From contig NZ_JACCBA010000001.1 of NCBI RefSeq assembly GCF_013409365.1, forward strand, positions 2,976,001 through 3,040,000: a DNA stretch of 64,000 nt, given 5' to 3'. Below, piece after piece: positions 42,746 through 64,000 of this stretch. Positions within the stretch are counted from its first letter, which is position 1. Every line of letters begins with the position of its first letter. The translations under genes and the position numbers were made by a program. The notes under the pieces are model-generated. The model made no database searches and was not told where the DNA came from. It saw only the letters and a program-made list of their open reading frames with translations. This DNA comes from Actinomadura luteofluorescens. Lineage in GTDB: Bacteria; Actinomycetota; Actinomycetes; Streptosporangiales; Streptosporangiaceae.

Positions 42746-44215
42746 GTGACCGCCGAAGCCGGCCTTCCCGACACGCTGCGCGACCTGCCCGCCTGGACCC
42801 CGGACCCGGTCGAGCTCGCCGACCTCGAACTCGTCCTCGCGGGGGTGTACCGCCCGCTGACGGGCTTCCTCGGCTCGTTCGACACCGCCATGGTGATCGC
42901 CGGAGGACGGCTCGCGGACGGCACCCCGTGGCCGGTCCCGGTCACGCTCTCGGTCCCCAAGGAGCTGACCGGCCACGAGCGGATCGTCCTGCAGGACCCC
43001 GAGGGCGTGCCGCTCGCGGTGCTGCGGGTCGGCGAGGCGTGGCAGGACCCGACGACCCAGGGGTTGCGGCTCGCCGGGCCGCTGGAGGCCCTCCGCGCCC
43101 CCGCGCACGGACCGTTCCACCGCCTGCGCCGCCGCCCGGACGAGCTCGACGCGTTCGAGGGCGCCGTGCTCGCGGTGGCCACCCGCGAGCCCCTGCACCG
43201 CAAGCAGCTCGGCCAGCTCCGCCAGGTCGCCGAGCGGCTCGCCGCGAAGGTCCTCGTCCTGCCGCTGCTGGGCGGCGAGCACGACGAGTCCCTCGTCCGG
43301 GCGCTGCTCGGCGTGCGCAAGGAGCTGCCGGACGGCGCCCAGATCATCCCCGTGCCCCTGCCGGCGCGCGGCGACCAGGAGCGCGACGTCCTGCTCCGCG
43401 CGCACGTCGCCGCCGCCTACGGGGCCACCCACCTGCTCGCCGAGCGGGAGATGGCCGGCACCGCCGTCCCGCTCGTCGTCCCGGAGCCGTGGGCCTACGA
43501 CGCCGACGTGGAGGTCTGGCGGCCCGTCGCGCGCATCGAGCCCGACCACGTCCAGGCGGAGCTGACCCCCGAGCGGCTGAACGAGCTGCTGGACGCGGGC
43601 GAGCCCGTCCCCGACTGGTTCACCCCGCCCGCCGTCGCCGCCGAGCTGGCGCTGGCGCGCCCCCCGAAGCGCTCGCGCGGCATCACGGTGTTCTTCACCG
43701 GCCTGTCCGGCTCCGGGAAGTCCACGGTCGCGCGCGGCCTGGCCGACGCGCTGGTGGAGCGCGGCGGCCGGACGGTCACGCTGCTGGACGGCGACGTCGT
43801 CCGGCGGATGCTGTCGGCGGGCCTGACGTTCTCCCGCGCCGACCGCGACCTCAACATCCGCCGCATCGGCTTCGTCGCCGCCGAGATCACCCGGCACGGC
43901 GGCACCGCGATCTGCGCGCCGATCGCCCCCTACGCGGCCACCCGCGCCGAGGTGCGGCGGATGGTGTCCGCCGTGGGCGACTTCATCCTCGTGCACGTGG
44001 CGACGCCGCTGGAGGAGTGCGAGCGGCGCGACCGCAAGGGCCTGTACGCCAAGGCCCGCGCCGGGCAGATCCCCGAGTTCACCGGCATCTCCGACCCCTA
44101 CGAGGAGCCGGACGACGCCGACCTGACGCTCGACACCGCGCGGCTGTCACCGGACGAGGCGGTCGCCCAGGTCCTCGATCTGCTGGTCGGCGGCGGCTGG
44201 GTGCGGGCGGAGTAG
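42746..44215 (+). CDS. Adenylylsulfate kinase fused to a degenerate ATP-sulfurylase domain
   Basis: The protein has 489 residues. The C-terminal domain (about 312-489) is a full APS kinase: P-loop GLSGSGKS (319-326), LLDGDVVRRMLSAGL, SRADRDLNIRRIGFVA and FILVHVATPLEECERRD; it makes PAPS from APS. The N-terminal 300 residues follow the ATP-sulfurylase fold (DLELVLAGVYRPLTGFLGS, YGATHLLAEREMAG), but the catalytic QxRNPPHxGH motif reads ATREPLHRKQ (145-154) and HPLVG reads LPLLG. The sulfurylase half is therefore probably inactive. CysD-CysN, 15 kb downstream, can supply the activity. The GTG at 42746 follows CGGAGATCGCG. Many databases would call it bifunctional Sat/CysC. Confidence 0.88.
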   Translation: MTAEAGLPDTLRDLPAWTPDPVELADLELVLAGVYRPLTGFLGSFDTAMVIAGGRLADGTPWPVPVTLSVPKELTGHERIVLQDPEGVPLAVLRVGEAWQDPTTQGLRLAGPLEALRAPAHGPFHRLRRRPDELDAFEGAVLAVATREPLHRKQLGQLRQVAERLAAKVLVLPLLGGEHDESLVRALLGVRKELPDGAQIIPVPLPARGDQERDVLLRAHVAAAYGATHLLAEREMAGTAVPLVVPEPWAYDADVEVWRPVARIEPDHVQAELTPERLNELLDAGEPVPDWFTPPAVAAELALARPPKRSRGITVFFTGLSGSGKSTVARGLADALVERGGRTVTLLDGDVVRRMLSAGLTFSRADRDLNIRRIGFVAAEITRHGGTAICAPIAPYAATRAEVRRMVSAVGDFILVHVATPLEECERRDRKGLYAKARAGQIPEFTGISDPYEEPDDADLTLDTARLSPDEAVAQVLDLLVGGGWVRAE

Positions 44216-44293
44216 CCTCCCCCGTCCCATTCGCCCCTCCCTACCCGGTATTTCCTGATCCGGAGGGCATCACCTATCGTGTTAACCATAATT

Positions 44294-44310
44294 CCTACAT
44301 GACAGGTAGG
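44294..44310 (+). promoter_or_regulatory. Inverted repeat overlapping the ribosome-binding site of the TauE/SafE gene
   Basis: CCTAC-ATGACAG-GTAGG; the right arm contains the AGGTAGG Shine-Dalgarno. CATAAT (44287-44292), a good -10, lies just upstream in an AT-rich patch. The arrangement fits repressor control of the permease. Confidence 0.4.
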
Positions 44311-44312
44311 TC

Positions 44313-45287
44313 ATGCCGATGGACTTCGATTGGACGATGGCGCTCGGCTCGTTCCTCGTCGCCATCATCGTGGGGCTGACCGGCATGGGCGGCGGCGCCC
44401 TGATGACGCCGATGCTCGTGACCTTCTTCGGAGTGAGCCCGCTCGCCGCCGTGTCCAGCGACCTGGTCGCCGCCGCCGTGATGAAACCGGTGGGCAGCGC
44501 CGTCCACTACCGGCAGGGCACGATCAACATGCGGCTGGTGGGCTGGCTGTGCGCCGGCTCGGTGCCCGCCGCGTTCTCCGGCGTCCTGCTGGCCCGCGCG
44601 CTCGGCCACGGCCACTCCGTCGAGAACGTCATCGGCAAGGCGATGGGCGCCGCCCTGATGATCGCGGCCGTGGGCCTGGTGCTGCGCGGCTACCTCGCCC
44701 ACCGGGGACGCGGCGGACCCGCCGCGGACGGCGACCGCACCCCCGAGATCATGGTCCGGCCCGTCCCGACCGTGCTGATCGGCGTCGTCGGCGGCCTCGT
44801 CGTCGGCATCACCTCGGTCGGCTCCGGCTCCCTCATCATCGTCGCGCTGCTCGCCCTCTACCCGGCGCTCAAGGCCAACCAGCTCGTCGGCACCGACCTG
44901 CTCCAGGCCGTCCCGCTGGTCTTCGCGGCCGCCATCGGCCACCTGCTGTTCGGCGACTTCCGCATGGAGGTCACCGCCGCGCTGCTCGCCGGGTCCGTCC
45001 CCGGCGTCTACCTCGGCTCCAAGATCTCCTCCCGGGCCCCGAGCGCCCTGATCCGGCGGGTGCTGGCCCTCGTGCTGGTCGCCTCCTCGCTGAAGATGTT
45101 CGGCGTCGCGCCCGCCCCGCTCGCCTGGATCATGGTCGTCCTCACCGCCGCCACGGTCGCCGCCTGGCTCGTCCTTCGCCAACGGACCGCGCCGCGCCGG
45201 GATACGCTGCCCTCTCCGGTCGTTTCCCCCGGCGTCGCCGGTGCCTCAGGAGAGCAGAGCGAACGTGGACCCACGATGGCCGCATGA
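44313..45287 (+). CDS. TauE/SafE family anion permease (sulfite exporter-like)
   Basis: This 324-residue membrane protein has about eight helices in two inverted halves, each opening with the family signature: GLTGMGGGALMTPMLVTFFG in the first and GITSVGSGSLIIVALL in the second. TauE/SafE proteins move sulfite, sulfonates, sulfoacetate or other small anions. Here it directly follows the APS kinase gene, so sulfate or sulfite traffic is a reasonable inference. The ATG at 44313 is listed, but the ATG at 44319 has the better spacing (eight bases) from AGGTAGG. The C-terminal 45 residues are polar. A palindrome overlaps the ribosome-binding site. Confidence 0.88.
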   Translation: MPMDFDWTMALGSFLVAIIVGLTGMGGGALMTPMLVTFFGVSPLAAVSSDLVAAAVMKPVGSAVHYRQGTINMRLVGWLCAGSVPAAFSGVLLARALGHGHSVENVIGKAMGAALMIAAVGLVLRGYLAHRGRGGPAADGDRTPEIMVRPVPTVLIGVVGGLVVGITSVGSGSLIIVALLALYPALKANQLVGTDLLQAVPLVFAAAIGHLLFGDFRMEVTAALLAGSVPGVYLGSKISSRAPSALIRRVLALVLVASSLKMFGVAPAPLAWIMVVLTAATVAAWLVLRQRTAPRRDTLPSPVVSPGVAGASGEQSERGPTMAA

Positions 45288-45473
45288 CACCGTCGGCGTC
45301 CTCGGCGTGCGGCCCGCCCGCGCCGACGCTCCGCACGGCTCTTTGAAGCGCACCGCGACGGACTGAACGACCGGGCACCGCCCGTCCCCCTCCCGGCTCC
45401 GCCCCGCCCCGGCGGCGCCGGCCCCGGGCGACCGCCCCGCGCGCAGTTCCGCTCGCACCTTCGAAGGAGTCCA

Positions 45474-45938
45474 GTGCCCCCAACCGGAAAACACGTCCTG
45501 CTGATCGGGTCGGCGGGCGGCCATCTGACCCAGCTCCTCGCGCTCGAACCCTGGTGGCGGTCGCACGAGCGCTCCTGGGTGACGTTCGAGTCGCGCCACG
45601 CGGAGTCCCTGCTGACCGGTGAGCAGGTGTCGTGGGCGCACCAGCCCACCACCCGCAACATCCCGAACCTGCTCCGCAACACCCGGCTCGCCTGGCGGCT
45701 GCTGCGGCGGACGCGGCCCGACGTCGTCGTCTCCACGGGCGCGGGCGTCGCGTTGCCCTTCTTCGTCCTCGCCAAGCTGATGCGGATCCCGGCCGTCTAC
45801 ATCGAGGTGTACGACCGCATCGACTCGCCTACGCTGACCGGACGGCTCTGCCGTCCGTTCGCGTCGCTGTTCCTGGTCCAGTGGGAGGAGCAGCGCCGCT
45901 TCTACTCGAACTCCGTCGTTGTGGGGAACCTGCTGTGA
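45474..45938 (+). CDS. PssD/Alg14-like glycosyltransferase membrane subunit
   Basis: This 154-residue protein matches the Alg14/PssD/Cps14F family: VLLIGSAGGHLTQLLAL near the start, DVVVSTGAGVALPFFVLAKL, VYIEVYDRIDSPTLTGRL and FLVQWEEQRRFY. In this family the Alg14-like subunit holds the acceptor lipid and recruits an Alg13-like catalytic subunit. The GTG at 45474 follows GAAGGAG. Its TGA overlaps the GTG of the next gene as GTGA, and that gene begins with the matching PssE/Alg13-like domain. Together they probably add the second sugar to the lipid-linked repeat unit. Confidence 0.88.
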   Translation: MPPTGKHVLLIGSAGGHLTQLLALEPWWRSHERSWVTFESRHAESLLTGEQVSWAHQPTTRNIPNLLRNTRLAWRLLRRTRPDVVVSTGAGVALPFFVLAKLMRIPAVYIEVYDRIDSPTLTGRLCRPFASLFLVQWEEQRRFYSNSVVVGNLL

Positions 45939-47425
45939 GCGACCTTCCGCTGGTGCTCGTGACCGTCGGCACCGACTACCACCGCTTCGACCGGCTGATC
46001 GAATGGGTGGACCGCTGGTACGCCGAGACGGGGCGGGGCCGCGTCCGCTGCGTCGTCCAGCACGGCGCCTCCCGCGCCCCCGAGCACGCCGAGCCGCGCG
46101 ACTTCCTCGACCACGTCGAGCTGCTGGAACTGATGGAACGGGCGACCGCCGTCGTGACCCACGCGGGCGCCTCGACGATCGGCGAGGCGCGCCGCCTCGG
46201 CCGGTTGCCGGTCATCGTGCCGCGCGACCCGGCCTTCGACGAGATCGTCGACGGCCACCAGATCGACTTCCTGCGGCGGATCGAGGAGAAGGGCCTCGTC
46301 GCCTCCTGCGCGGACGAGAAGGACCTGCGCGCGCGGCTCGACCGGCTGCTCGACGAGCCTGACGCCTTCCGCCTCGCGGAGGGAGACTCGGGGGCGGCGC
46401 AGGCCGCCGCGGTCCGGCGGACCGGTTCGCTGATCGACACGCTCATGACCGTGCGCGGCGGGACGTCCGCGCTCCCGGCGCGGGCTCCGGCCCCCGCGGC
46501 CGGGGAGCCGGAGGAGTACCCGAGCGTCACCGTCGTCATCGCCACCCGCAACCGCCCCGAGCTGCTGCGCGTCGCGCTCGAATCGATCCTCGCCCAGGAC
46601 TACCCGGGCGACGTCGACTGCCTCGTCGTACACGACCAGAGCGAGCCCGACGACACCGTCGCCGTCGACAAGCCCGGCCGCCGGGTCTCGGTCATGGTCA
46701 ACACCCGGTCGCAGGGCCTCGCCGGCGCCCGCAACTCCGGCATCCTCGCCGCCGGCGGCGACCTCGTCGCGTTCTGTGACGACGACGACCGGTGGCTGCC
46801 CGGCAAGCTGACCGCGCAGGTCGCGGCCCTGCGGACGGCGCCGGACGCCGGCCTCGCCTGCTGCGGCATCCGCGTCCTGTACGACGACACGAAGGTCGAC
46901 CGGGCCCTCGACCGCCGCGAAGTCACCTTCACCGACCTGCTGTACTCCCGCCTCACCGAGTTGCACCCCTCGACGTTCCTGCTCCGCAGGGACGCGCTGG
47001 TCGATCGGATCGGCCTGGTGAGCGAGGAGGTGCCGGGAAGCCACGGCGAGGACTACGAGTTCCTGCTGCGCGCGGCCCGCGACCACGCGATCGTCAACGT
47101 GCCCGAGGTGCACGTCGAGGTCCTGTGGCACAAGCAGTCCTACTTCGCGCAGCGCTGGCGCGTCATCGCCGACGCCCTGGCGTGGCTGCTGGAGCGGTTC
47201 CCCGAGTTCCGCCTGGCACCGGCCGGTTACGGCCGCATCGCGGGGCAGGTCGCGTTCGCGGAGGCCGCGTCGGGACGCCGCCGGTCGGCGCTGCGGTGGG
47301 CCCGCCGCACCGTCCGGGCGAACTGGCGGGAGCCGCGCGCCTACCTGACCGTCGCCGTGGCCTGCCGACTGATCAAGGCCGACCGGATCGTCCGGTTCCT
47401 GCACCGCCGGGGGCGCGGCATCTGA
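45935..47425 (+). CDS. Fused PssE/Alg13-like and GT2 glycosyltransferase
   Basis: The protein has 496 residues. Residues 1-165 are a GT28 C-terminal (PssE/Alg13) domain: LVLVTVGTDYHRFDRLIEWVD, AVVTHAGASTIGEARRLGR, PVIVPRDPAFDEIVDGHQ. A linker rich in Ala/Pro (about 170-194) leads to a GT2 domain (about 195-420) with VTVVIATRNRPELLRVALES, the metal-binding FCDDDDRWLPGK and GEDYEFLLRAA. The last 70 residues form a helical tail. Two sugar-transfer steps therefore lie on one chain: the first should pair with PssD, the second is independent. GTG start with 4-nt overlap. A perfect hairpin follows the stop. Cytoplasmic side of the membrane. Confidence 0.88.
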   Translation: MSDLPLVLVTVGTDYHRFDRLIEWVDRWYAETGRGRVRCVVQHGASRAPEHAEPRDFLDHVELLELMERATAVVTHAGASTIGEARRLGRLPVIVPRDPAFDEIVDGHQIDFLRRIEEKGLVASCADEKDLRARLDRLLDEPDAFRLAEGDSGAAQAAAVRRTGSLIDTLMTVRGGTSALPARAPAPAAGEPEEYPSVTVVIATRNRPELLRVALESILAQDYPGDVDCLVVHDQSEPDDTVAVDKPGRRVSVMVNTRSQGLAGARNSGILAAGGDLVAFCDDDDRWLPGKLTAQVAALRTAPDAGLACCGIRVLYDDTKVDRALDRREVTFTDLLYSRLTELHPSTFLLRRDALVDRIGLVSEEVPGSHGEDYEFLLRAARDHAIVNVPEVHVEVLWHKQSYFAQRWRVIADALAWLLERFPEFRLAPAGYGRIAGQVAFAEAASGRRRSALRWARRTVRANWREPRAYLTVAVACRLIKADRIVRFLHRRGRGI

Positions 47426-47432
47426 CGCCGCC

Positions 47433-47462
47433 GGGGGCCCGGCCGTCACCGGCCGGGCCCCC
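47433..47462. terminator. Perfect 13-bp stem, bidirectional terminator
   Basis: GGGGGCCCGGCCG-TCAC-CGGCCGGGCCCCC lies 7 bp after the glycosyltransferase stop and before the convergent lipoprotein gene. It has no T-run. Confidence 0.85.
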
Positions 47463-47477
47463 GGGCCGTGCGTTGCC

Positions 47478-48017
47478 TCAGCTGGGCAGCAGGGAGGCGT
47501 TCACGAGCGCGCCGCCCTTCGCGCAGTCGATCGACCGCAGCGTCACGTCGCCCTTGACGTGCGGCCGGCAGGTCCAGCCGGCCGAGGTGAGCGGCTTGCC
47601 GTCGTAGCCGTAACCGCGGACCTCGACCTCGGCGATGTAGCCGAAGTAGGTGGTGAAGACGGTGCGCACCTGCGAGCAGGACGCCTTGCCGCGCATGACC
47701 TTCAGGCCGTACTGCGCCGCCTGGTTGTTCTGGGCGGTGCCGCACACGGCCCCGGAGCCCCCCACCTTGGGCGGGTAGAGGTAGGGACGCGTCTGCGAGA
47801 CCGGAGTCGGTTTCGCCGGCGGCTTGGCGCCGCCCTTCGACTTGTCGCTCTCGCCCCCGGCCGGCTGGTCGGAGGCGCCCGCGGAAGCGGGGGCGCTCGG
47901 GTCGCTGGGCTCGGGTCCGGCGGACTTGCCGTCGCCCCCGCCGCCGCACGCGGACGCGGCGGGCAGCAGAACGGCCGTCACAAGGCAGGCCGCCATGGTG
48001 CGCCGTGAAAACAGCAT
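47478..48017 (-). CDS. Cysteine-rich lipoprotein of unknown function
   Basis: The protein has 179 residues. Its signal ends in LLPAASAC (acylated Cys at 24), then comes a Gly/Ser/Pro/Lys-rich linker to about 80. The small C-terminal domain of about 100 residues has four cysteines (AVCGT, ASCSQV, WTCRP, IDCAKG) and may form two disulfides. YGLKVMRGKASCSQVRTVFTTYF and YGYDGKPLTSAGWTC resemble small secreted actinobacterial proteins without an assigned role. The ATG at 48017 is eight bases after GGGGGA; an in-frame GTG at 48032 is an alternative. It is convergent with the GT gene, inside the glycan locus. Confidence 0.72.
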   Translation of the reverse strand: MLFSRRTMAACLVTAVLLPAASACGGGGDGKSAGPEPSDPSAPASAGASDQPAGGESDKSKGGAKPPAKPTPVSQTRPYLYPPKVGGSGAVCGTAQNNQAAQYGLKVMRGKASCSQVRTVFTTYFGYIAEVEVRGYGYDGKPLTSAGWTCRPHVKGDVTLRSIDCAKGGALVNASLLPS

Positions 48018-48248
48018 CTGGGAATCCCCCACTTCTCACGATCAGCTGACCCGGTAGAAGCGGTACCAGGGGTCAAGGAACCTTATGCCATCCGGCTCGG
48101 GCCCTTGGCCACTTCCCGGCATCTCGGTCGGGGCGGCCACATCCGGCAACGGCGCCGTGACCGCGCTTCGCGGGCGAGCGGCGGATGCCGCCACCGGCGG
48201 GCCGGTAGACTCGCGCGGAACCCCCGACCGGATCGCACAGGAGTCGTC

Positions 48249-49511
48249 GTGCCCACGTCCGAGCCACTGCGCGAGCTCATCGTCCGGCTGTGGGGCGAGT
48301 CCGGCCCGAACACGCCGGTCCTGGCGACCCTCGGCGACCTTCCCGCCGGCTACCGCCCCATGGAGAGCTACGCGGTCGTACCGAGCCCCGCCAACGCGCG
48401 GTTCCTCGTTCCGATCGCCGGCCACGCCGCCGCGGCGGCAACCCTGACCTGCTACAACCGGCTGCGCTCCGGGCAGGTGCGGGCGACCCGGCGGGTGCTC
48501 GGCGCCGGGTTCCGCACGGGACTCGCCCAGCGCCTGCTGCGGCACCGGCTGACCGTCGGCCTGCGCTCGGACATCCCCGCCGGACAGGCCGCCGACCACC
48601 TGCTCGGCGAGCACCTGCGCCGGGTGCTGGACGTCCCGCGGATCGTCTTCGGGCTGGGCGTGCGCCCCCTCGACCCCAACGGCAAGCCGACCCTCCAGGT
48701 CTTCTCGGGCGACGGCGCACCCCTCGGCTACGCGAAGATCGGCTGGAGTCCCGCCACCAAGGAGATGGCCGCGACCGAGGCGGCGGCCGTGGAGGCCGTC
48801 GGTGCCGCGCTGGCCGCGTCCGGTCCCGGGACGGGCGGGCCGCGCCCCCACGTCCCCGCGCTCCTGCACCACGGCCCGTGGCGCGACCTGCTCATCACGG
48901 TGACGGCGCCGCTACCGGCCCGCGTGAGCGGCCATGCCGACCCCGACAGCCCACCCGAGCCGGGGTTCACCCTCGCCGTCGCCGACAGCGCGTCCTCGGG
49001 CTGGGAGAGCCTCACCGACACGGCGTTCTGGCGGCGGCTGCGCGACGGCGTCGCCGCCATGGGCGACGAGCCCCGCCTCGCCGAGGCCATGAGCGCCGTC
49101 ATGGACGGTCTCGCCGACCGGCACGGGGAGTCGAAGCTGCGCATCGGCCGCTGGCACGGCGACTGGGTCCCGTGGAACGTCGGCCACCACGCCGGCGACC
49201 TGCACGTGTGGGACTGGGAGCACAGCGCCACGGGCGCGCCGGTCGGCCTCGACCTGCTGCACTGGCGCTTCCAGGTCGCCCTCGTGCTGCGCGGCGCCCC
49301 GCTGGACGCGGCCGTCGCCGCCGTCGAGAGCGCCGCCCGGGACGAGCTGGAGGCGTTCGGCGTGGCGGCGGAGGCCCGCGAGCTGATGGCGCGCCTCTAC
49401 CTGCTGGAGATGTTCGCGCGCACGCACCGGCTCAAGCTCGGCGGCGGAGGCTGGAACCCCGCCCTGTTCCCCGCGATGCTCGACGTCCTCGCACGCTGGC
49501 GGCTGTGTTGA
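48249..49511 (+). CDS. APH-fold phosphotransferase-like protein
   Basis: The protein has 420 residues. The C-terminal half carries the catalytic loop of aminoglycoside/choline kinase-like proteins, GRWHGDWVPWNVG (HxDxxxxN), and a DFG-like metal motif VWDWEHSATGAPVGLDLLHW. The ATP-binding lobe is recognisable around GYAKIGWSPATKEMAATEAAAV. Residues 1-120 are an N-terminal region I cannot name. The substrate may be a sugar or other small molecule; resistance is unlikely given the position in a glycan locus. The GTG at 48249 follows CAGGAGTCGTC. The 3' end runs into the inverted copy of the structured repeat, and the final residues (RWRLC) are encoded there. Confidence 0.75.
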   Translation: MPTSEPLRELIVRLWGESGPNTPVLATLGDLPAGYRPMESYAVVPSPANARFLVPIAGHAAAAATLTCYNRLRSGQVRATRRVLGAGFRTGLAQRLLRHRLTVGLRSDIPAGQAADHLLGEHLRRVLDVPRIVFGLGVRPLDPNGKPTLQVFSGDGAPLGYAKIGWSPATKEMAATEAAAVEAVGAALAASGPGTGGPRPHVPALLHHGPWRDLLITVTAPLPARVSGHADPDSPPEPGFTLAVADSASSGWESLTDTAFWRRLRDGVAAMGDEPRLAEAMSAVMDGLADRHGESKLRIGRWHGDWVPWNVGHHAGDLHVWDWEHSATGAPVGLDLLHWRFQVALVLRGAPLDAAVAAVESAARDELEAFGVAAEARELMARLYLLEMFARTHRLKLGGGGWNPALFPAMLDVLARWRLC

Positions 49512-49705
49512 TTCAGTCCCGGCCCACTTCGCTCGCCTTGCGGCTGTGTTTCAAAGTCCCGGCCCACTTCGCTCGCCTTGCGGCTCGCTACGTGACCGAG
49601 CCTGGGCGAACGCGGCATCGCTTCGCGATCTGCCCGGTTTCGCTCGCCTCCGGCTTCGCTGCACCGGGCAGCTCACGCGTTCGCGTGCGTCGCTGAGGCC
49701 ACTTC
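49500..49705 (-). repeat. Structured intergenic repeat, copy 3 (inverted)
   Basis: Read on the minus strand, this matches 880-1082 closely, including CGCACGCGAACGCGTGA, GCGAGCGAAACCGGGCAGAT and the doubled end module AGGCGAGCGAAGTGGGCCGG. It starts within the last codons of the phosphotransferase-like gene. The 320-bp gap 49512-49831 holds this repeat and a terminator, and no gene. Confidence 0.8.
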
Positions 49706-49775
49706 GAGACAGCCCCCTAGCGCCCTCTGTCCCCTGCCTGGGCCGCGCCCTTCGGACAGTAACCCGGAAACGGAG

Positions 49776-49811
49776 CGGGCCCGGGCTCGGCTTGCGCCGA
49801 ACCCGGGCCCG
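49776..49811 (-). terminator. Strong hairpin after the fibrinogen-domain gene
   Basis: The arms CGGGCCCGGG and CCCGGGCCCG extend inward through CTCGGC-TTGC-GCCGA. It lies 20 bp past the stop at 49832. Confidence 0.8.
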
Positions 49812-49831
49812 ATCACGGTCCGGTCTGCCGG

Positions 49832-56295: not shown

Positions 56296-56327
56296 ACTCG
56301 CCTCCCCTACCTTCCGGAACCCCGTCC

Positions 56328-56349
56328 GGTTGACCGGAGGTTGACCGGA
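56328..56349. promoter_or_regulatory. Perfect tandem 11-bp repeat in the divergent glycan promoter region
   Basis: GGTTGACCGGA occurs twice back to back, one helical turn apart, between the polymerase operon (minus) and the beta-helix gene (plus). Each copy holds TTGACC. It could be a binding site for a shared regulator. Confidence 0.45.
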
Positions 56350-56466
56350 GTCATCCGTTTCCGACCGGCAAGAGGATACGAACCTTACACTCGGAGGCCG
56401 AGCCTACGCCCCTGCGCCAGGGGATCGCGCCGGCTCGGGGCGGGCCGCGATCGGGGAGAGTGAGCA

Positions 56467-57564
56467 GTGGACGAGCGCTGGTATCAGAGGCGGTCGGTGC
56501 TGGGTGGAACGGCGTTCGCAGCGGCGGGCGTCACCGTGGGCGTCGCGGCGGAGACGCTGCTCGGCCCCGGGCCGACCCCCGCCGCCGCCGAGCAGACGGG
56601 ACCCTGGACGTACGTCCCGCCGGGCGGCTCCATCCAGAGGGCCATCGCCGGCGGCGCCACCGCCGTCATGCTGGGGCACGGCGAATACCCCCTGACCGAG
56701 CCGCTCGTCCCCACGCGGGGCTGCACGATCCGCGGCGCCGGGCAGCGGACCCGCCTGCGCGCGGCCCGGTCCATGGACGCGATGATCGCCATCGGGGACG
56801 GCCGGTCGGTCGACGGTGTCTCCATCTCCGACCTGGTGCTCGACTGCGCCGACCGGGCCGGGATCGGCATCGACCTCGACATCACCGGCACCAGCCGGTT
56901 CTACAAGGGCGAGCCCGACGCGGTGTGCCGCCTGGACAACCTCGCCGTCTACATGCCGGCGCTGGACGGCGTCGCCTACCGCGGCAGCGACACCCAGGCC
57001 TGCGTGACGAGCCGCGTCAGGGTCCGCCAGGCGGGCCGGTACGGGTTCCGCGTGGAGGCCCCCGACAGCTGGTGGATCGCCTGCGAGGCGACCACGCGGC
57101 GGCAGACCGGGTCGAGCGCCGGCTTCTACGTCGGCCCGCCCATCCCCGGCTCCGACGGGATCGGCGGCGCCAACAACTTCTTCCAGGCGTGCAAGGCCTG
57201 GTACTGCCGCGACTACGGCTGGCACGTCAAGGGCGAGCGCAACAAGTTCATCGGCTGCGAGTCCCAGGACACCCGCGCCCACGGCTGGTTCATCGAGGCC
57301 GACCGCAACGTCTTCACCGGCTGTGTGGCCGACACCTCGGGCTCCCGCGACCTCGGCGCGGGCGCGAACGAGGCCGACGGCTTCTTCGTCGGCCAGGGCG
57401 ACCAGACGTCCCTGGTGGGATGCCAGGCGTTCGACCGCAAGCCCGCCGGGCAGGCCCCGCAGCAGCGCTACGGCTTCAACGTCCCGGCCGCCATGGCGGA
57501 CCAGGGGCGGGTGGCGGGCCACACCGGATGGGACAACCTCACGGGCCTGCTCAACCGGCGCTGA
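56467..57564 (+). CDS. Tat-exported right-handed beta-helix protein
   Basis: The protein has 365 residues. It begins with a twin-arginine signal (QRRSVLGGTAFAAAGVTVG, cleavage near AAA-EQ). The mature part has parallel beta-helix rungs in the pectate-lyase style: GGSIQRAIAGGATAVMLGHG, GCTIRGAGQRTRL, NNFFQACKAWYCRDYGWHV and NKFIGCESQDTRAHGWFIEADRNVF. Such proteins are often polysaccharide lyases, epimerases or hydrolases. No catalytic residues can be assigned with confidence. It could trim or modify the exported glycan. The GTG at 56467 follows GGGGAGAGTGAGCA. Its stop lies in a duplicated 18-bp sequence. Confidence 0.85.
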   Translation: MDERWYQRRSVLGGTAFAAAGVTVGVAAETLLGPGPTPAAAEQTGPWTYVPPGGSIQRAIAGGATAVMLGHGEYPLTEPLVPTRGCTIRGAGQRTRLRAARSMDAMIAIGDGRSVDGVSISDLVLDCADRAGIGIDLDITGTSRFYKGEPDAVCRLDNLAVYMPALDGVAYRGSDTQACVTSRVRVRQAGRYGFRVEAPDSWWIACEATTRRQTGSSAGFYVGPPIPGSDGIGGANNFFQACKAWYCRDYGWHVKGERNKFIGCESQDTRAHGWFIEADRNVFTGCVADTSGSRDLGAGANEADGFFVGQGDQTSLVGCQAFDRKPAGQAPQQRYGFNVPAAMADQGRVAGHTGWDNLTGLLNRR

Positions 57565-57596
57565 CCGCACCTGCCGGACGGCGCTGACCGCACCTG
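57556..57596 (+). repeat. Duplicated 18-bp sequence at the stop codon
   Basis: CGGCGCTGACCGCACCTG occurs at 57556-57573 and again at 57579-57596, a 23-bp period. The first copy contains the stop of the beta-helix gene. It looks like a recent small tandem duplication. Confidence 0.75.
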
Positions 57597-57678
57597 GCCA
57601 GGCCGCCGGACGGGCCCCGTGGCCGCCGCGCGCGGGACGTCGCCGTCACCCGCCGTTCAAGGGTTCGCCATCAATGGG

Positions 57679-57692
57679 CCAAGGTATCTTGG
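57679..57692 (+). promoter_or_regulatory. Short palindrome upstream of the Wzz-like gene
   Basis: CCAAG-GTAT-CTTGG lies 80 bp before the ATG at 57772 in a less GC-rich stretch. It is a possible operator. The rest of the 207-bp gap shows only the small duplication. Confidence 0.3.
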
Positions 57693-57771
57693 ACCGGACT
57701 CCGACGGGGAGTGGACCGCGCGCGGGGCGCGCACGGCGAGAATCGACGGCTGCGAGAGGAACACCCGGCTA

Positions 57772-59643
57772 ATGGACTCCACGGCGAAGGCCGATTCCAC
57801 GGAGCTGGCGGAATACGCGGCCATGCTCCGGCGGCGGTGGTGGGTGGTCGTCGCCGGAGCGATGCTCGGACTGGCGATCGCCGGCGCCGGCCTGGTGCTG
57901 CTGCCCAAGTCGTACGTGTCCACGGCCATCGTGCAGGTCACCGCCACCGATCCCGAGGTGCCCAAGAGCAACGGCGGCAAGAACGACTTCAGCCTGGAGA
58001 CCGAGGCGCAGCGGCTGCGCTCCACCGAGGTGACGAGCCTCGTGCAGAAGCGGATCGGCGCGTCCGACTCGCCGCTGGCGCTCGGCCGCCGCGTGCAGGT
58101 CACCGTGCCGCCCAACTCGTCCGTCCTCGTCATCGAGTGGGCGGCGGCCAGCTCGGGGAAGGCGCGCGCCGGAGCGCAGGCATTCGCCGAGGCCTACCTC
58201 CAGAACCGCAACCAGAAGGCGGTGCAGCGGCTGCAGAGCCAGGCCGCGGTGCTGGAGAAGCAGATCAACGACGTCCGCACCAAGCTCGCGACCGCCGGGG
58301 CCACCCAGCGACGCGTGCTGAGCGCCCAGATCAACGCCTTCAGCAACAAGCTGACCGACCTGCAGGTGGCCGCCGCGAACGTGGACGGCGGCGAGATCAT
58401 CACCAGCGCGTCGCCACCCGCCGGGCCCTCCAGCCCCGACCCCGTCAAGTTCCTGCCGAGCGGCCTGGCCGGCGGGCTGCTGCTCGGCATCATCCTGGCG
58501 ATCATGTACGACCGGTTCGACCGGCGCGTGCGGGTCGCCGGGGACGTCGAGCGCGTCCTGGACCTGCCCGTCCTGCTGTCCATCCCGCAGCGGCGCGGCA
58601 AGGAGGAGCTCGGCCTGCTGCCCGCGCGCAGCCGCAGCGGGCAGAACTTCCACGAGCTCGCGCACGAGCTGACCGCGACCCTCGGCCACGGCAACCACGT
58701 CATCCTCGTCACCGGCGCCGCGCCCGGCCCCGGCTCCAGCATCGTGTCGGTGAACCTCGCCGCCGCGCTCGCCCGCACCGGGTCCAACGTCCTCCTGGTG
58801 TGCGCCAACCTCCAGTCGCCGCTGGCGGCCGACCTGCTCGGGCTGCACCGCGGGGCCGGGCTGTCGGAGCTCCTGCTCGCCCGGGTCGAGCTGCGCGACG
58901 TGGTGCGCCGCAACCACGCGCTGCCGTCCCTGGCCACCATCACCCCCGGCGCCGACGTCGACCTCGCGGCCGAGATGCTGCAGCGCGAGCAGATGGCCCG
59001 CCTCATCGGCTCGCTGCGCGAGAAGGCCCGCTTCACGGTCGTCGAGGCCCCCTCGACCGAGCTCGGCGCCGACGCCCAGGCCCTCGCCGACCTGTCCGAC
59101 GCCGCCCTGATCGTCGTGGAGACCCCGCGCACCAAGTACGCGCAGATCCGCGACGGCGTCCGCCGCATCCACCGGATGGGCGCGGCCGTGCTCGGCGCGG
59201 TCGTCCTGCCGAAGCAGGACGAGATCGCCGTGACGACGCCCGCGCCGTCGCTGCCCCGCGAGCCCCGCGACATGCCTCCGCGGCGGCGGGACGGCTCGGC
59301 GGGCTCGGGAGCCCAGCTGCCGGCCCCCATGCCGGCGCCGTCCGCGCCCAAGGAGCCGCGCCGCGCCGCGGCGCACGCCGCGCGGGAACCGGGCCCCCGG
59401 CGCGACCCGCTCACGGGCGAGGCCGACCAGCCGCGCCCCCGCAAGCACGCGCGGCCCGCCGCCCCGGACGCCGGCCCCCTCGACGACCAGGACAAGCCGA
59501 ACGACAAGACCATCACGCTCAGCAAGGTGAACCTGGACGCGTTCGTGCCGCCCGACGACGCCGTCTCCCCCGCGGCCGACACCCTGACCGACAAGGCGGC
59601 GCAGAAGGTCAACCGCCCCCGGCCTCCCGAGGGCGGGGCGTAA
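57772..59643 (+). CDS. Wzz/Wzc-like chain-length protein with degenerate BY-kinase domain
   Basis: The protein has 623 residues. The Wzz part has helix 1 (about 22-43), an extracytoplasmic coiled coil (about 45-230) and helix 2 (about 235-255, SGLAGGLLLGIILAIMYDR). A tyrosine-kinase-like domain follows (about 280-490). Its Walker A reads GAAPGPGSS (315-323), so the P-loop lysine is missing, and Walker A' reads VCANLQSP in place of the usual DxDxR. There is no C-terminal tyrosine cluster; the tail is Pro/Arg-rich. It probably controls chain length or export as a scaffold without kinase activity. The ATG at 57772 is preceded by AGAGGAA at longer spacing. Confidence 0.87.
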   Translation: MDSTAKADSTELAEYAAMLRRRWWVVVAGAMLGLAIAGAGLVLLPKSYVSTAIVQVTATDPEVPKSNGGKNDFSLETEAQRLRSTEVTSLVQKRIGASDSPLALGRRVQVTVPPNSSVLVIEWAAASSGKARAGAQAFAEAYLQNRNQKAVQRLQSQAAVLEKQINDVRTKLATAGATQRRVLSAQINAFSNKLTDLQVAAANVDGGEIITSASPPAGPSSPDPVKFLPSGLAGGLLLGIILAIMYDRFDRRVRVAGDVERVLDLPVLLSIPQRRGKEELGLLPARSRSGQNFHELAHELTATLGHGNHVILVTGAAPGPGSSIVSVNLAAALARTGSNVLLVCANLQSPLAADLLGLHRGAGLSELLLARVELRDVVRRNHALPSLATITPGADVDLAAEMLQREQMARLIGSLREKARFTVVEAPSTELGADAQALADLSDAALIVVETPRTKYAQIRDGVRRIHRMGAAVLGAVVLPKQDEIAVTTPAPSLPREPRDMPPRRRDGSAGSGAQLPAPMPAPSAPKEPRRAAAHAAREPGPRRDPLTGEADQPRPRKHARPAAPDAGPLDDQDKPNDKTITLSKVNLDAFVPPDDAVSPAADTLTDKAAQKVNRPRPPEGGA

Positions 59644-59695
59644 GGGAAGCGCGACCGGTACCGCTCGGCCGGTTCCGGAGAGAACGGACCCAGCC

Positions 59696-59727: not shown

Positions 59728-61053
59728 TCAGCGCGCGCCGGTGATCATTCCGGCGGCGACGGTGTTGTTGGTGGCCTCGTCGATCAGGATGAAGCCGCCG
59801 GTGAGGCGGTTGCGGCCGTAGTCGTCGACGAACAGCGGCTGCGTCACCCGCAGCGAGATGCGGCCGATCTCGTTCAGGCCGAGGGAGTCGGCCTGGTCGT
59901 CGCGGTGCAGGGTGTTGACGTCCAGCCGGTAGTGCAGCTGCTTCACCATCGCCTTCGCGGTGCGGGTCGTGTGCTTGATGACCAGCTTCGTGCGCGGGGC
60001 GAGGGTGCGGTCCGGGGTCATCCAGCAGACCATCGCGTCGATGTCCTGCGCGACCTCGGGCCGGTTGTTCGGACGGGCGATCATGTCGCCGCGGGAGATG
60101 TCGATGTCGTCGGCGAGGCGCAGGGTCACCGACATCGGCGCGAACGCCTCCCCGACCGGCCCGCCCGGCCCGTCGATGTGGGTGATCGTCGTGGTCAGCC
60201 CGGACGGCAGGTGCACCACCTCGTCGCCCGGCTTCAGCACGCCGCCCGCCACCTGGCCCGCGTAGCCGCGGTAGTCGTGCAGGTCGGGATCCGTGGACGC
60301 GTGCGGCCGGACCACGTACTGCACCGGGAACCGCACGTCGATCAGGTTGCGGTCGGAGGCGATGTGCACGTGCTCCAGATGGTGCAGCAGCGACGAGCCC
60401 TCGTACCACGGCATGTTCACGCTGCGCTCGACGACGTTGTCGCCGTGCAGCGCCGAGATCGGGATGAACGTCAGGTCCGTGACCTCCAGCTTGGAGGCGA
60501 AGGACGTGAACTCGTCGACGATCCGCTCGTACACGCCGCGGTCGTAGTCGACCAGGTCCATCTTGTTGATCGCCACGACCAGGTGCGGGACCTGGAGGAG
60601 CGTGGTGAGGAACGCGTGCCGGCGCGACTGCTCCAGGATGCCCTTCCGGGCGTCCACGAGGATGATCGCCAGGTCGGCGGTGGAGGCGCCGGTCACCATG
60701 TTCCGGGTGTACTGGATGTGCCCCGGGGTGTCGGCGATGATGAACTTGCGGCGCGGCGTCGCGAAGTACCGGTACGCCACGTCGATGGTGATGCCCTGCT
60801 CCCGCTCGGCCCGCAGGCCGTCGGTCAGCAGCGCCAGGTTCGTGTACTCCTCGCCGCGGTCGGCGCTGGTCTTCTCGACCGACTCCAGCTGGTCCTCGAA
60901 GATCGACTTGGAGTCGAACAGCAGCCGGCCGATCAGCGTGGACTTGCCGTCGTCGACGCTGCCGGCGGTGGCGAACCGCAGGAGGTCCATCGCCTTGGCC
61001 GGCCGGTCCCCGGCCGGACGGCCCCCGGCGAGCCCGTCGTTCGCGCTGGCCAT
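59728..61053 (-). CDS. cysN: Sulfate adenylyltransferase subunit 1 (GTPase)
   Basis: This 441-residue translation-factor-type GTPase has G1 GSVDDGKSTLIGRLL, G3 DTPGHIQYTRNMVTGAS and G4 NKMDL. DKKYCSTKRR-like switch regions are replaced by EYTNLALLTDGLRAEREQGITIDVAYRYF, the CysN form. Domains 2 and 3 (beta barrels) follow. CysN couples GTP hydrolysis to formation of APS by CysD. There is no C-terminal APS-kinase extension, so APS phosphorylation must come from the enzyme at 42746. The ATG at 61053 overlaps the cysD stop by one base (TGATG), giving tight coupling. The usual order cysD-cysN is kept. Confidence 0.95.
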   Translation of the reverse strand: MASANDGLAGGRPAGDRPAKAMDLLRFATAGSVDDGKSTLIGRLLFDSKSIFEDQLESVEKTSADRGEEYTNLALLTDGLRAEREQGITIDVAYRYFATPRRKFIIADTPGHIQYTRNMVTGASTADLAIILVDARKGILEQSRRHAFLTTLLQVPHLVVAINKMDLVDYDRGVYERIVDEFTSFASKLEVTDLTFIPISALHGDNVVERSVNMPWYEGSSLLHHLEHVHIASDRNLIDVRFPVQYVVRPHASTDPDLHDYRGYAGQVAGGVLKPGDEVVHLPSGLTTTITHIDGPGGPVGEAFAPMSVTLRLADDIDISRGDMIARPNNRPEVAQDIDAMVCWMTPDRTLAPRTKLVIKHTTRTAKAMVKQLHYRLDVNTLHRDDQADSLGLNEIGRISLRVTQPLFVDDYGRNRLTGGFILIDEATNNTVAAGMITGAR

Positions 61054-61970
61054 CAGAAGTAGCCCTCCTTCTTGCGGTCCTCCATCGCGGCCTCGCTGGT
61101 GCGGTCGTCGGCGCGGGTCTGGCCGCGCTCGGTGATCCGCGTCGCCGCGATCTCCTCGATCACCTCGTCGAGCGTCACCGCGTTCGACTTCACCGCGCCC
61201 GTGCAGGACGCGTCGCCGACCGTCCGGTACCGGACGGTCGCCGCGAACTCGGGCTCGTCGTCGCCGCGGTTCGCGAAGCCCGTCTCGGCGTCCAGGAGCA
61301 GCCCGTCGCGCTCGAACACCTGCCGGCTGTGCGCGAAGTAGATCGGCGGGAGTTCGAGCTCCTCGCGCCGCACGTAGTCCCAGATGTCGAGCTCGGTCCA
61401 GTTCGACAGCGGGAACACCCGGACGTGCTCACCCTGCACGATCTTGGTGTTGAACAGGTTCCACAGCTCCGGGCGCTGGTTCTTGGGGTCCCACTGCCCG
61501 AACTCGTCCCGGAAGGAGACCACCCGCTCCTTCGCGCGGGCCTTCTCCTCGTCCCGGCGCGCGCCGCCGAACGCCGCGTCGAACTGGTGCTCCTCGATGG
61601 CGTCCAGAAGCGGGGTGATCTGGAGCCGGTTCCGGGACGCGCGGCGGCCCTTCTGCTCCACCACCCGGCCGCTGTCGATCGCGTCCTGCACCGACGAAAC
61701 GATCAGCCGGACGCCGAGCTCGCCGACCCGGCGGTCCCGGAACTCGATCACCTCCGGGAAGTTGTGGCCGGTGTCGACGTGCATGACCGGGAAGGGGATC
61801 GGGGCGGGCCAGAACGCCTTCTGCGCCAGGCGCAGCATGACGATGCTGTCCTTGCCGCCGGAGAACAGCAGCACCGGCCGCTCGAACTCGGCCGCCACCT
61901 CCCGGAAGATATGGATCGACTCGGCTTCGAGGACGTCTAGCTGGGACAGCAGATAATCGCAACGCTGCAT
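61053..61970 (-). CDS. cysD: Sulfate adenylyltransferase subunit 2
   Basis: This 305-residue PP-loop enzyme has SGGKDSIVMLRLAQKAF, then HVDTGHNFPEVIEFRD, AFGGARRDEEKARAKERV and FPLSNWTELDIWDYV, all typical of CysD. It adenylylates sulfate to APS, driven by CysN. The C-terminal tail (TSEAAMEDRKKEGYF) is the conserved CysD end. The ATG at 61970 is where conservation starts, although its ribosome-binding site (AGAGCCCC) is poor; the frame is open 64 codons upstream. It forms an operon with cysN and lies 125 bp after cysQ. No PAPS reductase or sulfite reductase gene is present in the window. Confidence 0.95.
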   Translation of the reverse strand: MQRCDYLLSQLDVLEAESIHIFREVAAEFERPVLLFSGGKDSIVMLRLAQKAFWPAPIPFPVMHVDTGHNFPEVIEFRDRRVGELGVRLIVSSVQDAIDSGRVVEQKGRRASRNRLQITPLLDAIEEHQFDAAFGGARRDEEKARAKERVVSFRDEFGQWDPKNQRPELWNLFNTKIVQGEHVRVFPLSNWTELDIWDYVRREELELPPIYFAHSRQVFERDGLLLDAETGFANRGDDEPEFAATVRYRTVGDASCTGAVKSNAVTLDEVIEEIAATRITERGQTRADDRTSEAAMEDRKKEGYF

Positions 61971-62095
61971 GGTCTGGGGCTCTTTCCACGCTGTTCTGGC
62001 AGATGCAACCGGTGGCACGGAGACGGGCACATGCCTTCCCACCGGGTCGAAACGCCGGCCCGCGCCGGTGCGGTCCCGCCCTGGGGGCGGACCGG

Positions 62096-63034
62096 TCACG
62101 GCAGCGCGCCGCTTACTTCCCGGATGCCGGTCAGCAGCGTTGACGCCGACATGGGATGGCACACCAGGATATCCGGGAGCCGGGGGTCCTCACGGTTGTA
62201 GCGCAGCGGCGCCCCGTCGACCCGGGACGCGTGCGCCCCGGCGCCGAGCGCGACGGCCGCCGGGGCCGCCGAGTCCCACTCGAACTGGCCGCCCGCGTGC
62301 ACGTAGGCGTCCACCTCGCCGAGCAGCACCGCGGAGATCTTCGCGCCCGCGGATCCGATCGGCACCAGCTCCACCTCCGGCTCGATCGCCTCCGCCAGCC
62401 GCCGGACGAACTCCGGCGGCCGCGTGCGGCTCACGGCGATGCGCAGCTTCTCCGCGTCCGGCGCCGGAACGTGCAGCGGCACCTCGCGGGGCGGCGGCGT
62501 CCCGGCGGGCCCGGCCGTGACGGGGTCGGGGTCGGCGAGGTCGGTGCGGACGAGCGAGGCGCCGCCCACCGCGTCCGTGCGGAGCGTCAGGCCCTGCGCC
62601 GGCAGCGCGACGGCGCCGGCCGCCAGGCGGCCGTCGCCGTACGCGTCCCGCTCCCACAGCGCCACGTGCACGGCCCAGTCGCGGCGGCCCTCCTCGGAGA
62701 ACTCGCGGGTGCCGTCCAGGGGGTCGACGATCCACACGCGGGAGGCCGTGAGCCGCTCCGCGTCGGCGGTGTTGCGGGTGGGGGCGCGGTCGTCGCCCCG
62801 GGACCGCTTCCCGGCGACCGAGGACCGCCCCTCCTCGGACAGGACGGCGTCACCGGGACAGCGCTCCGCCAGCGCCGCCATCAGGTACTCGTGCGCTCGC
62901 AGGTCGCCGGTGTCCTTCAGGGCCCTCGCGTCGGCGAAGCCCATCTCGTCCCGCACGCCCAGCAGCAGCCGGCCCGCCGTCCCGGCGAGCTCGGCCGCGA
63001 GCGAATGATCGTCCGCCGCCCCTGCCTCGGTCAT
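62096..63034 (-). CDS. cysQ: 3'(2'),5'-bisphosphate nucleotidase (PAP phosphatase)
   Basis: This 312-residue inositol-monophosphatase-fold protein has its metal sites in DAVLSEEG, in VDPLDGTREFSEEGRRDWAVHVAL and in GGQFEWDSAAPAAVAL. These are the CysQ/FIG signatures. It hydrolyses PAP, the by-product of sulfotransferases and PAPS reductases, and so relieves inhibition. A role with the sulfotransferase at 52444 is inferred. An insertion in the second quarter (SSVAGKRSRGDDRAPTRNTA) makes it a little longer than usual. The ATG at 63034 is the best start, with a weak ribosome-binding site. It is probably co-transcribed with cysDN. Confidence 0.9.
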   Translation of the reverse strand: MTEAGAADDHSLAAELAGTAGRLLLGVRDEMGFADARALKDTGDLRAHEYLMAALAERCPGDAVLSEEGRSSVAGKRSRGDDRAPTRNTADAERLTASRVWIVDPLDGTREFSEEGRRDWAVHVALWERDAYGDGRLAAGAVALPAQGLTLRTDAVGGASLVRTDLADPDPVTAGPAGTPPPREVPLHVPAPDAEKLRIAVSRTRPPEFVRRLAEAIEPEVELVPIGSAGAKISAVLLGEVDAYVHAGGQFEWDSAAPAAVALGAGAHASRVDGAPLRYNREDPRLPDILVCHPMSASTLLTGIREVSGALP

Positions 63035-63223
63035 CTGAGATCACATTCCCGACTCGACTGGTCTGCTCGGTCTACTTTCTCATGCCCGCCGCATCCGCCT
63101 CGGGACGAGGTCCCGCCCAGCGGCCCGCACGCCAGTGTTCCGGCCGCGCCGCGGCGCGGGCAGCGCCCTGTCGTGTTCTCGCCGGGGCTCGGCCGCCGCG
63201 CACCGCACGCCGCGGCGGCCCGC

Positions 63224-64000
63224 TCAGTACGCGCCGGAGCCGCGGAAGACGGCCGACCAGGTCTTCCACATGATCTGCAGGTCCAGGACGAGGGTCCAGT
63301 TGTCGACGTACCGCAGGTCGAGCCGGACCGACTCCTCCCACGACAGGTCCGAGCGGCCGCTCACCTGCCAGAGCCCGGTCAGGCCCGGCTTGACCACCAG
63401 GCGGCGGTAGACGTCGCCGCCGTACTGGGCGACCTCGTCGGGCAGCGGCGGGCGCGGGCCCACGAGCGACATCTCGCCGCGCAGCACGTTGAACAGCTGC
63501 GGCAGCTCGTCCAGCGAGTACCGGCGCAGCCGGCGGCCCACCCGCGTCACCCGCGGGTCCTGCCGGATCTTGAACAGCACCCCGTCGTTGTCGTTGGCGG
63601 CCAGCAGCTCCATCCGGCGCGCCTCGGCGTCGGCGACCATCGTGCGGAACTTCAGCACCGTGAACTCCCGGCCCCCGCGCCCGACGCGCGTCTGCCGGAA
63701 CAGCACCGGGCCGTCCCCGGACATCTTGATCAGGACGGCGATCAGCAGCAGCAGCGGGCTCAGCGCCACGATCCCGCCGAGCGCCACGACCCGGTCGACC
63801 AGGCCCTTGAGGACCTTGCGGCCGCCGTCCAGCTCCGGGTGCTCCACGTGCAGCAGCGGCAGGCCCGACACCGGGCGGATCGAGATCCGCGGGCCGGTCA
63901 CGTCCATCAGCGCGGGCGCCACGACCAGCTCGACGTCGTTGCGCTCGATCTGCCACGCCAGCCGTCGCAGCGCCACCCCGTCCATCTCCGGGCACGCCAG
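63224..64000 (-). CDS. Polyprenyl-phosphate sugar-1-phosphate transferase (C-terminal part, 5' end outside window)
   Basis: Only the C-terminal 258 codons are inside the window; the frame continues past the edge (CPEMDGVALRRLAW), so the ATG at 63985 is internal. The catalytic bacterial-transferase domain is complete: one helix (ALGGIVALSPLLLLIAVLI), GPVLFRQTRVGRGGREFTVLKFRTM, YSLDELPQLFNVLRGEMSLVGPRPPLP and KPGLTGLWQVSGRSDLSWEE. It starts glycan synthesis by moving a sugar phosphate to undecaprenyl phosphate. The missing N-terminus should hold membrane helices and a CoA-binding-like domain. It ends 189 bp downstream of the cysQ start region, on the same strand. Confidence 0.93.
   Translation of the reverse strand: MACPEMDGVALRRLAWQIERNDVELVVAPALMDVTGPRISIRPVSGLPLLHVEHPELDGGRKVLKGLVDRVVALGGIVALSPLLLLIAVLIKMSGDGPVLFRQTRVGRGGREFTVLKFRTMVADAEARRMELLAANDNDGVLFKIRQDPRVTRVGRRLRRYSLDELPQLFNVLRGEMSLVGPRPPLPDEVAQYGGDVYRRLVVKPGLTGLWQVSGRSDLSWEESVRLDLRYVDNWTLVLDLQIMWKTWSAVFRGSGAY

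Follow-up and report, generated by a model that had tools for sequence, protein, structure and literature searches.

Papers of 2021 and 2026 describe sulfated polysaccharides as exclusive to cyanobacteria among bacteria; marine cases from Cobetia and Vibrio have nevertheless been published. Here we describe a locus of the actinomycete Actinomadura luteofluorescens which, judged from its genes, probably makes a sulfated extracellular polysaccharide by a Wzx/Wzy-type pathway. The window, i.e. the whole stretch of DNA that was analysed (64 kb, 72.8% GC), covers positions 2,976,001 to 3,040,000 of contig NZ_JACCBA010000001.1, and the host genome comprises 9.62 Mb in this single contig. From position 42,746 of the window onwards, a sulfotransferase (ST), glycan genes, and genes for the synthesis of adenosine 5'-phosphosulfate (APS) and, from it, 3'-phosphoadenosine 5'-phosphosulfate (PAPS) lie together in one locus, as expected for a sulfated polysaccharide. 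The locus itself is real. The PAPS genes include SatL-ApsK, an APS kinase behind a degenerate ATP-sulfurylase domain. Genomes and loci compared are denoted by G and L numbers.

An actinomycete locus of this kind, wps-1 of Actinoplanes missouriensis, was published in June 2026 (PMC13390465). By its published description, WpsG, WpsJ, and WpsK correspond to Wzx, Wzy, and Wzz, WpsH is a heparan-sulfate-type sulfotransferase, WpsB a second sulfotransferase, WpsI a kinase-like protein, and WpsE a member of glycoside hydrolase family 26 (GH26); AMIS_7390 encodes a protein of the sulfate adenylyltransferase/APS kinase family. Deletion of wpsG, wpsH, wpsI, wpsJ, wpsK, or AMIS_7390 damaged the sporangia, and a wpsB mutant looked normal and released fewer spores. 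The authors proposed a sulfated exopolysaccharide, its sulfation awaiting proof, and called the AMIS_7390 result unexpected, tying the enzyme to sulfur amino acids (PMC13390465). The window shares with wps-1, as far as the latter is known by description, Wzx, Wzy, Wzz, a glycosyltransferase of family 2 (GT2), the heparan-sulfate-type ST, the kinase-like protein, and a gene of the sulfate adenylyltransferase/APS kinase family. It differs in that the locus also holds CysQ-CysD-CysN, a TauE/SafE-family permease (TauE), and a priming transferase, and in that cassette exchange takes place between the sulfate genes. For GH26, the methyltransferase, and the second sulfotransferase of wps-1, no Pfam match was found among the scanned open reading frames (ORFs) of the window cassette. 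A preliminary description of the window, made from its letters, knew of no described actinomycete system of this composition, a statement overtaken by wps-1. In our literature search, conducted mostly without subscription papers, PMC13390465 alone among the titles listed joined actinomycetes with genes for a sulfated exopolysaccharide. The window locus is not the first actinomycete case; as far as this search shows, it represents a variant whose genetic architecture has not been reported before.

Structures of sulfated polymers have been reported for Cobetia marina KMM 1449 (PMC11766843) and Vibrio sp. KMM 8419 (PMC11641403). Like the window, their capsule loci, as described, unite glycan genes, sulfotransferases, and PAPS genes, namely cysN/cysC, cysD, cysQ, and a sulfate permease in Cobetia (PMC11766843) and cysC, cysN, and cysD in Vibrio (PMC11641403). 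In contrast to the window locus, both are Gram-negative, ABC-transporter capsules with a CysC-type kinase, and the PAPS genes of Vibrio are described as second copies (PMC11641403), whereas none was found as a second copy in the genome of the window. The synechan locus xss of Synechocystis resembles the window in its Wzx/Wzy pathway and has two sulfotransferases, and sulfate was measured in its polymer (PMC8205485). It differs in being plasmid-borne and cyanobacterial, and the word PAPS is absent from the available text of that paper (PMC8205485).

Sulfate frame and glycan cassette

The sulfate genes constitute a chromosomal frame that stays fixed, bounded by mfd and pth. CysD and SatL-ApsK were both found in 65 of 65 genomes of the genus (best matches 87-98% and 82-97% identical, respectively), and in 44 of these they are located on one contig at a spacing of 18.3-28.2 kb (median 24.7 kb). 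A strong ST homologue (E-value 2.7e-52 or better) was detected in 55 of the 65 genomes, and 59 have a homologue at E 0.001. The strong homologue lies between CysD and SatL-ApsK in 34 of the 44 one-contig frames; the other ten lack it, and in no case is a strong ST present only elsewhere in the genome. In the 21 genomes whose frame is split between contigs, the ST accompanies SatL-ApsK on its contig seven times, CysD nine times, and neither of them five times, and is thus joined to one end of the frame in 16. Altogether, 54 ST neighbourhoods of the genus were compared gene by gene, and the conservation of the priming transferase was judged from fetched loci.

The interior of the frame changes even between close relatives. 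SatL-ApsK and CysD of G007 are 97% identical to those of the window, and blastn gave 95.7% DNA identity up to position 45341 (just past TauE), resuming with 94.8% at 59694 (just past the CysN stop). Between these breakpoints, the only matches were one of 906 bases (67.8%, in the GT2 gene) and one of 151 bases (73.5%), and the G007 locus (L064) holds its own diverged ST, Wzx, and Wzy. For G053, the breakpoints of DNA identity are almost unchanged (45180 and 59732). The frames of G009 and G040 are less similar, yet their core is common with the window. The strong STs of the genus are 35-51% identical to that of the window, except in G009 (91%) and G040 (81%); the ST of Actinomadura darangshiensis is 91% identical. 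Since G007 combines a nearly identical frame with an interior which hardly aligns as DNA, the block of about 14 kb with glycan genes and ST between TauE and CysN is, on this comparison, an exchangeable cassette, swapped between species. Capsule-type switching across conserved flanks shows the same pattern. As the cassette includes an ST in 34 of the one-contig loci and not in the other ten, its structure suggests that sulfation is a switchable trait.

Gene identities were taken from family searches (Pfam, NCBIfam) of the window ORFs and partly from reading by eye. The ORFs came from a GC-frame gene caller, which sometimes picked the wrong strand. The features are as follows.

42746..44215, + strand: APS kinase fusion SatL-ApsK, frame gene (PF01583 191 bits, PUA_2, weak ATP-sulfurylase)
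44313..45287, + strand: TauE/SafE-family permease, last frame gene before the cassette (PF01925 137 bits)
45341..59694, no strand: the block read as exchangeable cassette (DNA identity to G007 is lost at the first position and regained at the second)
45474..45938, + strand: Alg14-like glycosyltransferase subunit (PF08660)
45935..47425, + strand: Alg13/PssE-like domain fused to GT2 glycosyltransferase (PF04101, PF00535; PssE NCBIfam match under cut-off)
47478..48032, - strand: small secreted lipoprotein-like protein (GC-frame ORF, read by eye)
48243..49511, + strand: kinase-like protein, candidate WpsI homologue (no Pfam match; invariant residues)
49832..52285, - strand: secreted fibrinogen-like GGGW + beta-propeller-like protein (NF040941 78 bits; weak propeller matches)
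52444..53343, - strand: ST, heparan-sulfate-sulfotransferase-like (PF00685, profile matches, motifs)
53340..54953, - strand: Wzx-type flippase (PF01943 24.9 bits, under its cut-off of 28.2)
54928..56295, - strand: Wzy-type polymerase (PF04932, Wzy_C, 36.8 bits)
56467..57564, + strand: exported beta-helix-like protein (by eye; family searches without match)
57769..59643, + strand: Wzz/Wzc-like co-polymerase with degenerate bacterial tyrosine kinase (BY-kinase)-like domain (PF02706 34.7 bits)
59728..61053, - strand: CysN, GTPase subunit of ATP sulfurylase, frame gene (PF00009, PF22594)
61053..61970, - strand: CysD, ATP sulfurylase subunit, frame gene (NF003587 461 bits; start set by homology)
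62096..63034, - strand: CysQ-type phosphatase, frame gene (PF00459 96 bits)
63224..64699, - strand: priming sugar-phosphate transferase, a bacterial sugar transferase, with its start beyond the window end at 64000 (PF02397 231 bits; extension from L005)

The family searches thus recovered the genes named in the preliminary description (CysD/CysN, CysQ, the permease, APS kinase, priming transferase, Wzx, Wzy, glycosyltransferases, and ST), with some refinement. The gene at 42746, first read as APS kinase, encodes a fusion of this domain with PUA_2 and ATP-sulfurylase-like domains; the protein at 44313, first read as an anion permease, is a permease of the TauE/SafE family; and the Wzz-like protein at 57772 matches PF02706, with its start moved to 57769 and a BY-kinase-like domain without the Walker A lysine. 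The components of a Wzx/Wzy-dependent locus (priming transferase, glycosyltransferases, Wzx, Wzy, and co-polymerase) are found together, the Pfam score of Wzx being under the curated cut-off. The start of the ST gene overlaps the stop of Wzx as ATGA. Given this overlap and the recurrence of the arrangement in relatives, the parts co-occur more than by chance. The locus is flanked by mfd (37898-41683) on one side and by pth, rplY, prs, and glmU (read by eye, from 65135, outside the window) on the other. An ORF with a methyltransferase domain (41494-42615) is located between mfd and SatL-ApsK, outside the cassette.

Loci without the sulfotransferase and linkage in other actinomycetes

Ten species lack a detectable ST in the locus (G003, G018, G025, G028, G032, G053, G055, G061, G062, and G063). 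All of them keep SatL-ApsK, CysQ, CysD, CysN, and the priming transferase, and nine keep TauE. Their cores hold rhamnose-type, Wzy-like, glycosyltransferase family 4 (GT4), Wzx-like, and beta-propeller genes; in other species (e.g. L043), the same core type has an ST beside the Wzy-like gene. Two hidden Markov models run over all frames found no ST in the ten cores (best non-control E 0.28), with the limit that another ST family could escape them; of the 55 controls, the ST model found 55 and the second model 47. On these scans a hidden ST in the ten cores was rejected, the matches to PF13469/PF00685 being all outside the frames.

In G080, which belongs to another genus, pth, CysQ, CysD, CysN, TauE, SatL-ApsK, and mfd are consecutive, and neither glycan genes nor a priming transferase were found between pth and mfd; SatL-ApsK aligns there over 490 residues without internal stop. 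As the congeners G138 and G165 do have cores, the lack of glycan genes in G080 may be a loss. Because the ten ST-less species keep the frame and G080 holds the sulfate genes without glycan genes, the sulfate genes are the more constant element of the locus. The same observations led us to reject a private PAPS supply, as the preliminary description had proposed for the polymer. In the host genome, a second CysD or a second APS kinase was not found (for the APS kinase, 24 of 42 first-look candidates were scored), and other sulfotransferase genes exist besides that of the cassette.

Beyond the genus, a family sample of 200 genomes from 68 genera was searched with cut-offs of E <=1e-25 for ST and E <=1e-100 for SatL-ApsK. 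ST homologues were detected in 144 genomes, SatL-ApsK in 109, and CysD in 193. Linkage was counted among the matches listed, which cover ST in 127 of the 144 genomes, CysD in 149 of the 193, and both in 112. ST and CysD share a contig in 92 of the 112 genomes, and in all 92 the nearest ST copy, which was the one used, lies within 30 kb of CysD (median 9.7 kb); the 20 genomes with ST and CysD on different contigs were left out. This includes all 25 assemblies of no more than about 10 contigs, so the linkage is not an artefact of short contigs; the sampled genomes are related, and the counts are therefore not independent events. For the 36 genomes listed with ST and SatL-ApsK on one contig, the two lie within 15 kb in 35. 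That glycan and sulfate genes belong together, as first proposed from the window, is thus borne out by the 92 same-contig pairs. G075 has seven ST homologues, of which the six listed form two tandem runs of three on contigs C118 and C136.

The named collection yielded at least 557 confirmed ST relatives, of which the best 80 were used; 57 of these loci, many from Micromonospora, span at least 20 kb, and they contain a Wzy-like gene in 52 cases and a Wzx-like gene in 51. All 24 genomes picked from this collection have SatL-ApsK or an APS kinase domain. Nine SatL-ApsK places were read in Micromonospora, Actinoplanes, and kin. Four of them adjoin Wzc-Wzy-kinase-ST-Wzx, i.e. (i) Paractinoplanes L226; (ii) Nucisporomicrobium L228; (iii) Couchioplanes L229; and (iv) Actinocatenispora L231, where TauE sits between SatL-ApsK and the glycan genes. 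In L226, L228, and L229 the gene order matches that described from wpsE to AMIS_7390 in A. missouriensis. No CysDN match was found in the 18-20 kb pieces of these four loci. L227 and L233 adjoin part of this set of genes, and L230, L232, and L236 none of it. In Arthrobacter L138 and Kineosporia L139, ST, Wzx, and Wzy are located beside CysD, CysN, CysQ, and a priming transferase.

Several points weigh against the reading as a sulfated-polysaccharide locus in which sulfate and glycan genes cooperate. These comprise (i) the ten of 65 genus genomes whose locus retains frame and glycan core but yielded no ST; (ii) Sulfotransfer_3 genes outside the locus in 15 of 15 genomes tested (the ten ST-less and five comparison genomes, which all have Sulfotransfer_1 matches elsewhere as well), so that PAPS has other users; (iii) the distribution of the 129 ST copies listed, of which 92 are near CysD, three on the same contig 0.23-1.8 Mb off, and 34 on other contigs; (iv) 16 genomes which, among the matches listed, carry both near-CysD and not-near copies; (v) G068, G157, G107, G133, G125, and G193, where the ST copy most like that of the window is not near CysD, meaning that this ST type also lives in other loci; (vi) G232, with ST 4.66 Mb from SatL-ApsK; (vii) the 57 named ST loci that span 20 kb or more (from the best 80), of which only 10 contain a sulfate-activation gene; and (viii) the sporangium role, which would be carried over from Actinoplanes to Actinomadura. 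In the six genomes under (v), the ST away from CysD is 66-69% identical to that of the window and the near ST less similar. The idea that sulfate genes are always beside an ST is false, given the many ST loci and copies without them. The preliminary description had suggested comparing synteny in relatives, and would have given way if these kept glycan genes without sulfate genes and the reverse. The linkage recurs; parts of the opposite pattern also occur, namely the ten frames without ST and G080, where sulfate genes stand without glycan genes.

Some of these observations would also be expected if the sulfate genes were housekeeping genes and the glycan cassette, inserted by chance, used PAPS incidentally. 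CysD occurs once in the host genome and throughout the genus, the G080 frame manages without glycan genes and ten frames with glycan core without a detected ST, and the 16 genomes have an ST copy away from CysD besides the near one. Such an arrangement nevertheless seems unlikely to us, as the linkage persists when the partner changes: 64 of the 81 listed ST genomes without a SatL-ApsK match at the cut-off have CysD no more than 40 kb away, and four other loci link SatL-ApsK in the absence of a CysDN match. Moreover, deletion of the APS-kinase-family neighbour is reported to have severely damaged the sporangia of A. missouriensis (PMC13390465).

Enzymes and predicted pathway

At the position where the active sulfurylases 1g8f and 1m8p show FQTRNPMHRAH, SatL reads VATREPLHRKQ, and none of the 35 motif-covering SatL-ApsK homologues has an active QTRNP..HRAH-type motif. 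The APS kinase domain is complete (PF01583 positions 1-152 of 152). A bifunctional enzyme which makes APS itself was rejected on the degenerate motif. Since all 35 sequences share a degenerate ATP-sulfurylase domain, SatL-ApsK should make PAPS from APS and depend on CysDN for the latter. PDB 3cr8, which we take to be from Thiobacillus denitrificans, is a similar fusion of a sulfurylase-like domain and APS kinase with an altered motif (QARQPMHRAQ); its motif changes differ. The SatL-ApsK homologues of G270, G271, and G272 lack the stretch around residues 235-299, and the G272 match also includes one TGA. CysH of the host contains CC...CxxC and is encoded elsewhere in the genome, next to what looks by eye like a sulfite reductase gene. 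Two such cysteine pairs are the mark of APS reductases, so cysteine synthesis should proceed without PAPS, which should serve sulfotransferases instead.

Compared with solved structures, the ST profile matched heparan sulfate 3-O-sulfotransferase 3A1 (E 1.8e-31) and heparan sulfate N-deacetylase/N-sulfotransferase (E 1.2e-28); the top match, 3rnl (E 3.4e-40), is named only 'Sulfotransferase'. A Glu is invariant in 13 sequences aligned to heparan sulfate 3-O- and N-sulfotransferases, and 5' and 3' PAPS-site motifs, loosely defined, occur in 55 of 55 STs. Motifs of this kind mark the PAPS-binding site of sulfotransferases. A second sulfotransferase type has nine members in the genus loci (e.g. 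L087 13737-14750) and is on the same piece as CysN in five (L080, L082, L087, L089, and L090). PF00685 is a broad family, and sulfolipids and sulfated antibiotics are known from actinomycetes; the ST might accordingly act on a lipid, a protein, or a small molecule and leave the polysaccharide unsulfated. With heparan sulfate sulfotransferases as its best named solved relatives, the ATGA overlap with Wzx, and the Wzy-like and Wzx-like genes in most of the 57 named ST loci, we regard this as very improbable.

In the Wzc-like protein, the Walker A lysine is absent (the site reads GAAPGPGSS by eye), and a pattern search found no GxxxxGK[ST] in 31 of 33 members of its cluster; with the lysine missing, its tyrosine-kinase-like domain is probably inactive. 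In the kinase-like protein, K165, E179, HGD...WN, and DWE are invariant in 11 aligned sequences. It is present in 34 of 54 genus ST loci, 53 of 80 named ST loci, and five of nine SatL-ApsK loci, and may phosphorylate the glycan or its precursor. Sequences related to the fibrinogen-like GGGW + propeller-like protein occur in 48 of the 54 genus ST loci.

From these assignments we infer the sulfation of the polymer, the order of steps, and a developmental role. The priming transferase would load the first sugar on a lipid carrier and the cassette glycosyltransferases would extend it. CysDN would make APS (also feeding cysteine), SatL-ApsK would convert it to PAPS, and CysQ would clear 3'-phosphoadenosine 5'-phosphate (PAP). 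In the cytosol, the ST would sulfate the lipid-linked unit, which Wzx would flip and Wzy polymerise, with the Wzc-like protein controlling length. By homology to wps-1 of A. missouriensis, the polymer would probably be part of a spore- or sporangium-associated matrix.

Going further, and tentatively, at somewhat less than an even chance, we propose that the sulfate genes are the fixed frame of a capsule-like locus that switches sulfated-glycan cassettes in Actinomadura and relatives, that sulfated polysaccharides of a spore or hypha matrix occur widely among actinomycetes, and that SatL-ApsK, a kinase with a pseudo-sulfurylase, is the PAPS maker. To read the APS-kinase gene in this way is new. 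AMIS_7390 would by the same reasoning make PAPS for WpsH, which would explain why it is needed for sporangia and would offer a testable reason for the developmental phenotype its authors called unexpected. If true in many actinomycete species and families, the proposal would make these bacteria a new source both of sulfated glycans and of sulfotransferases of the heparan sulfate type.

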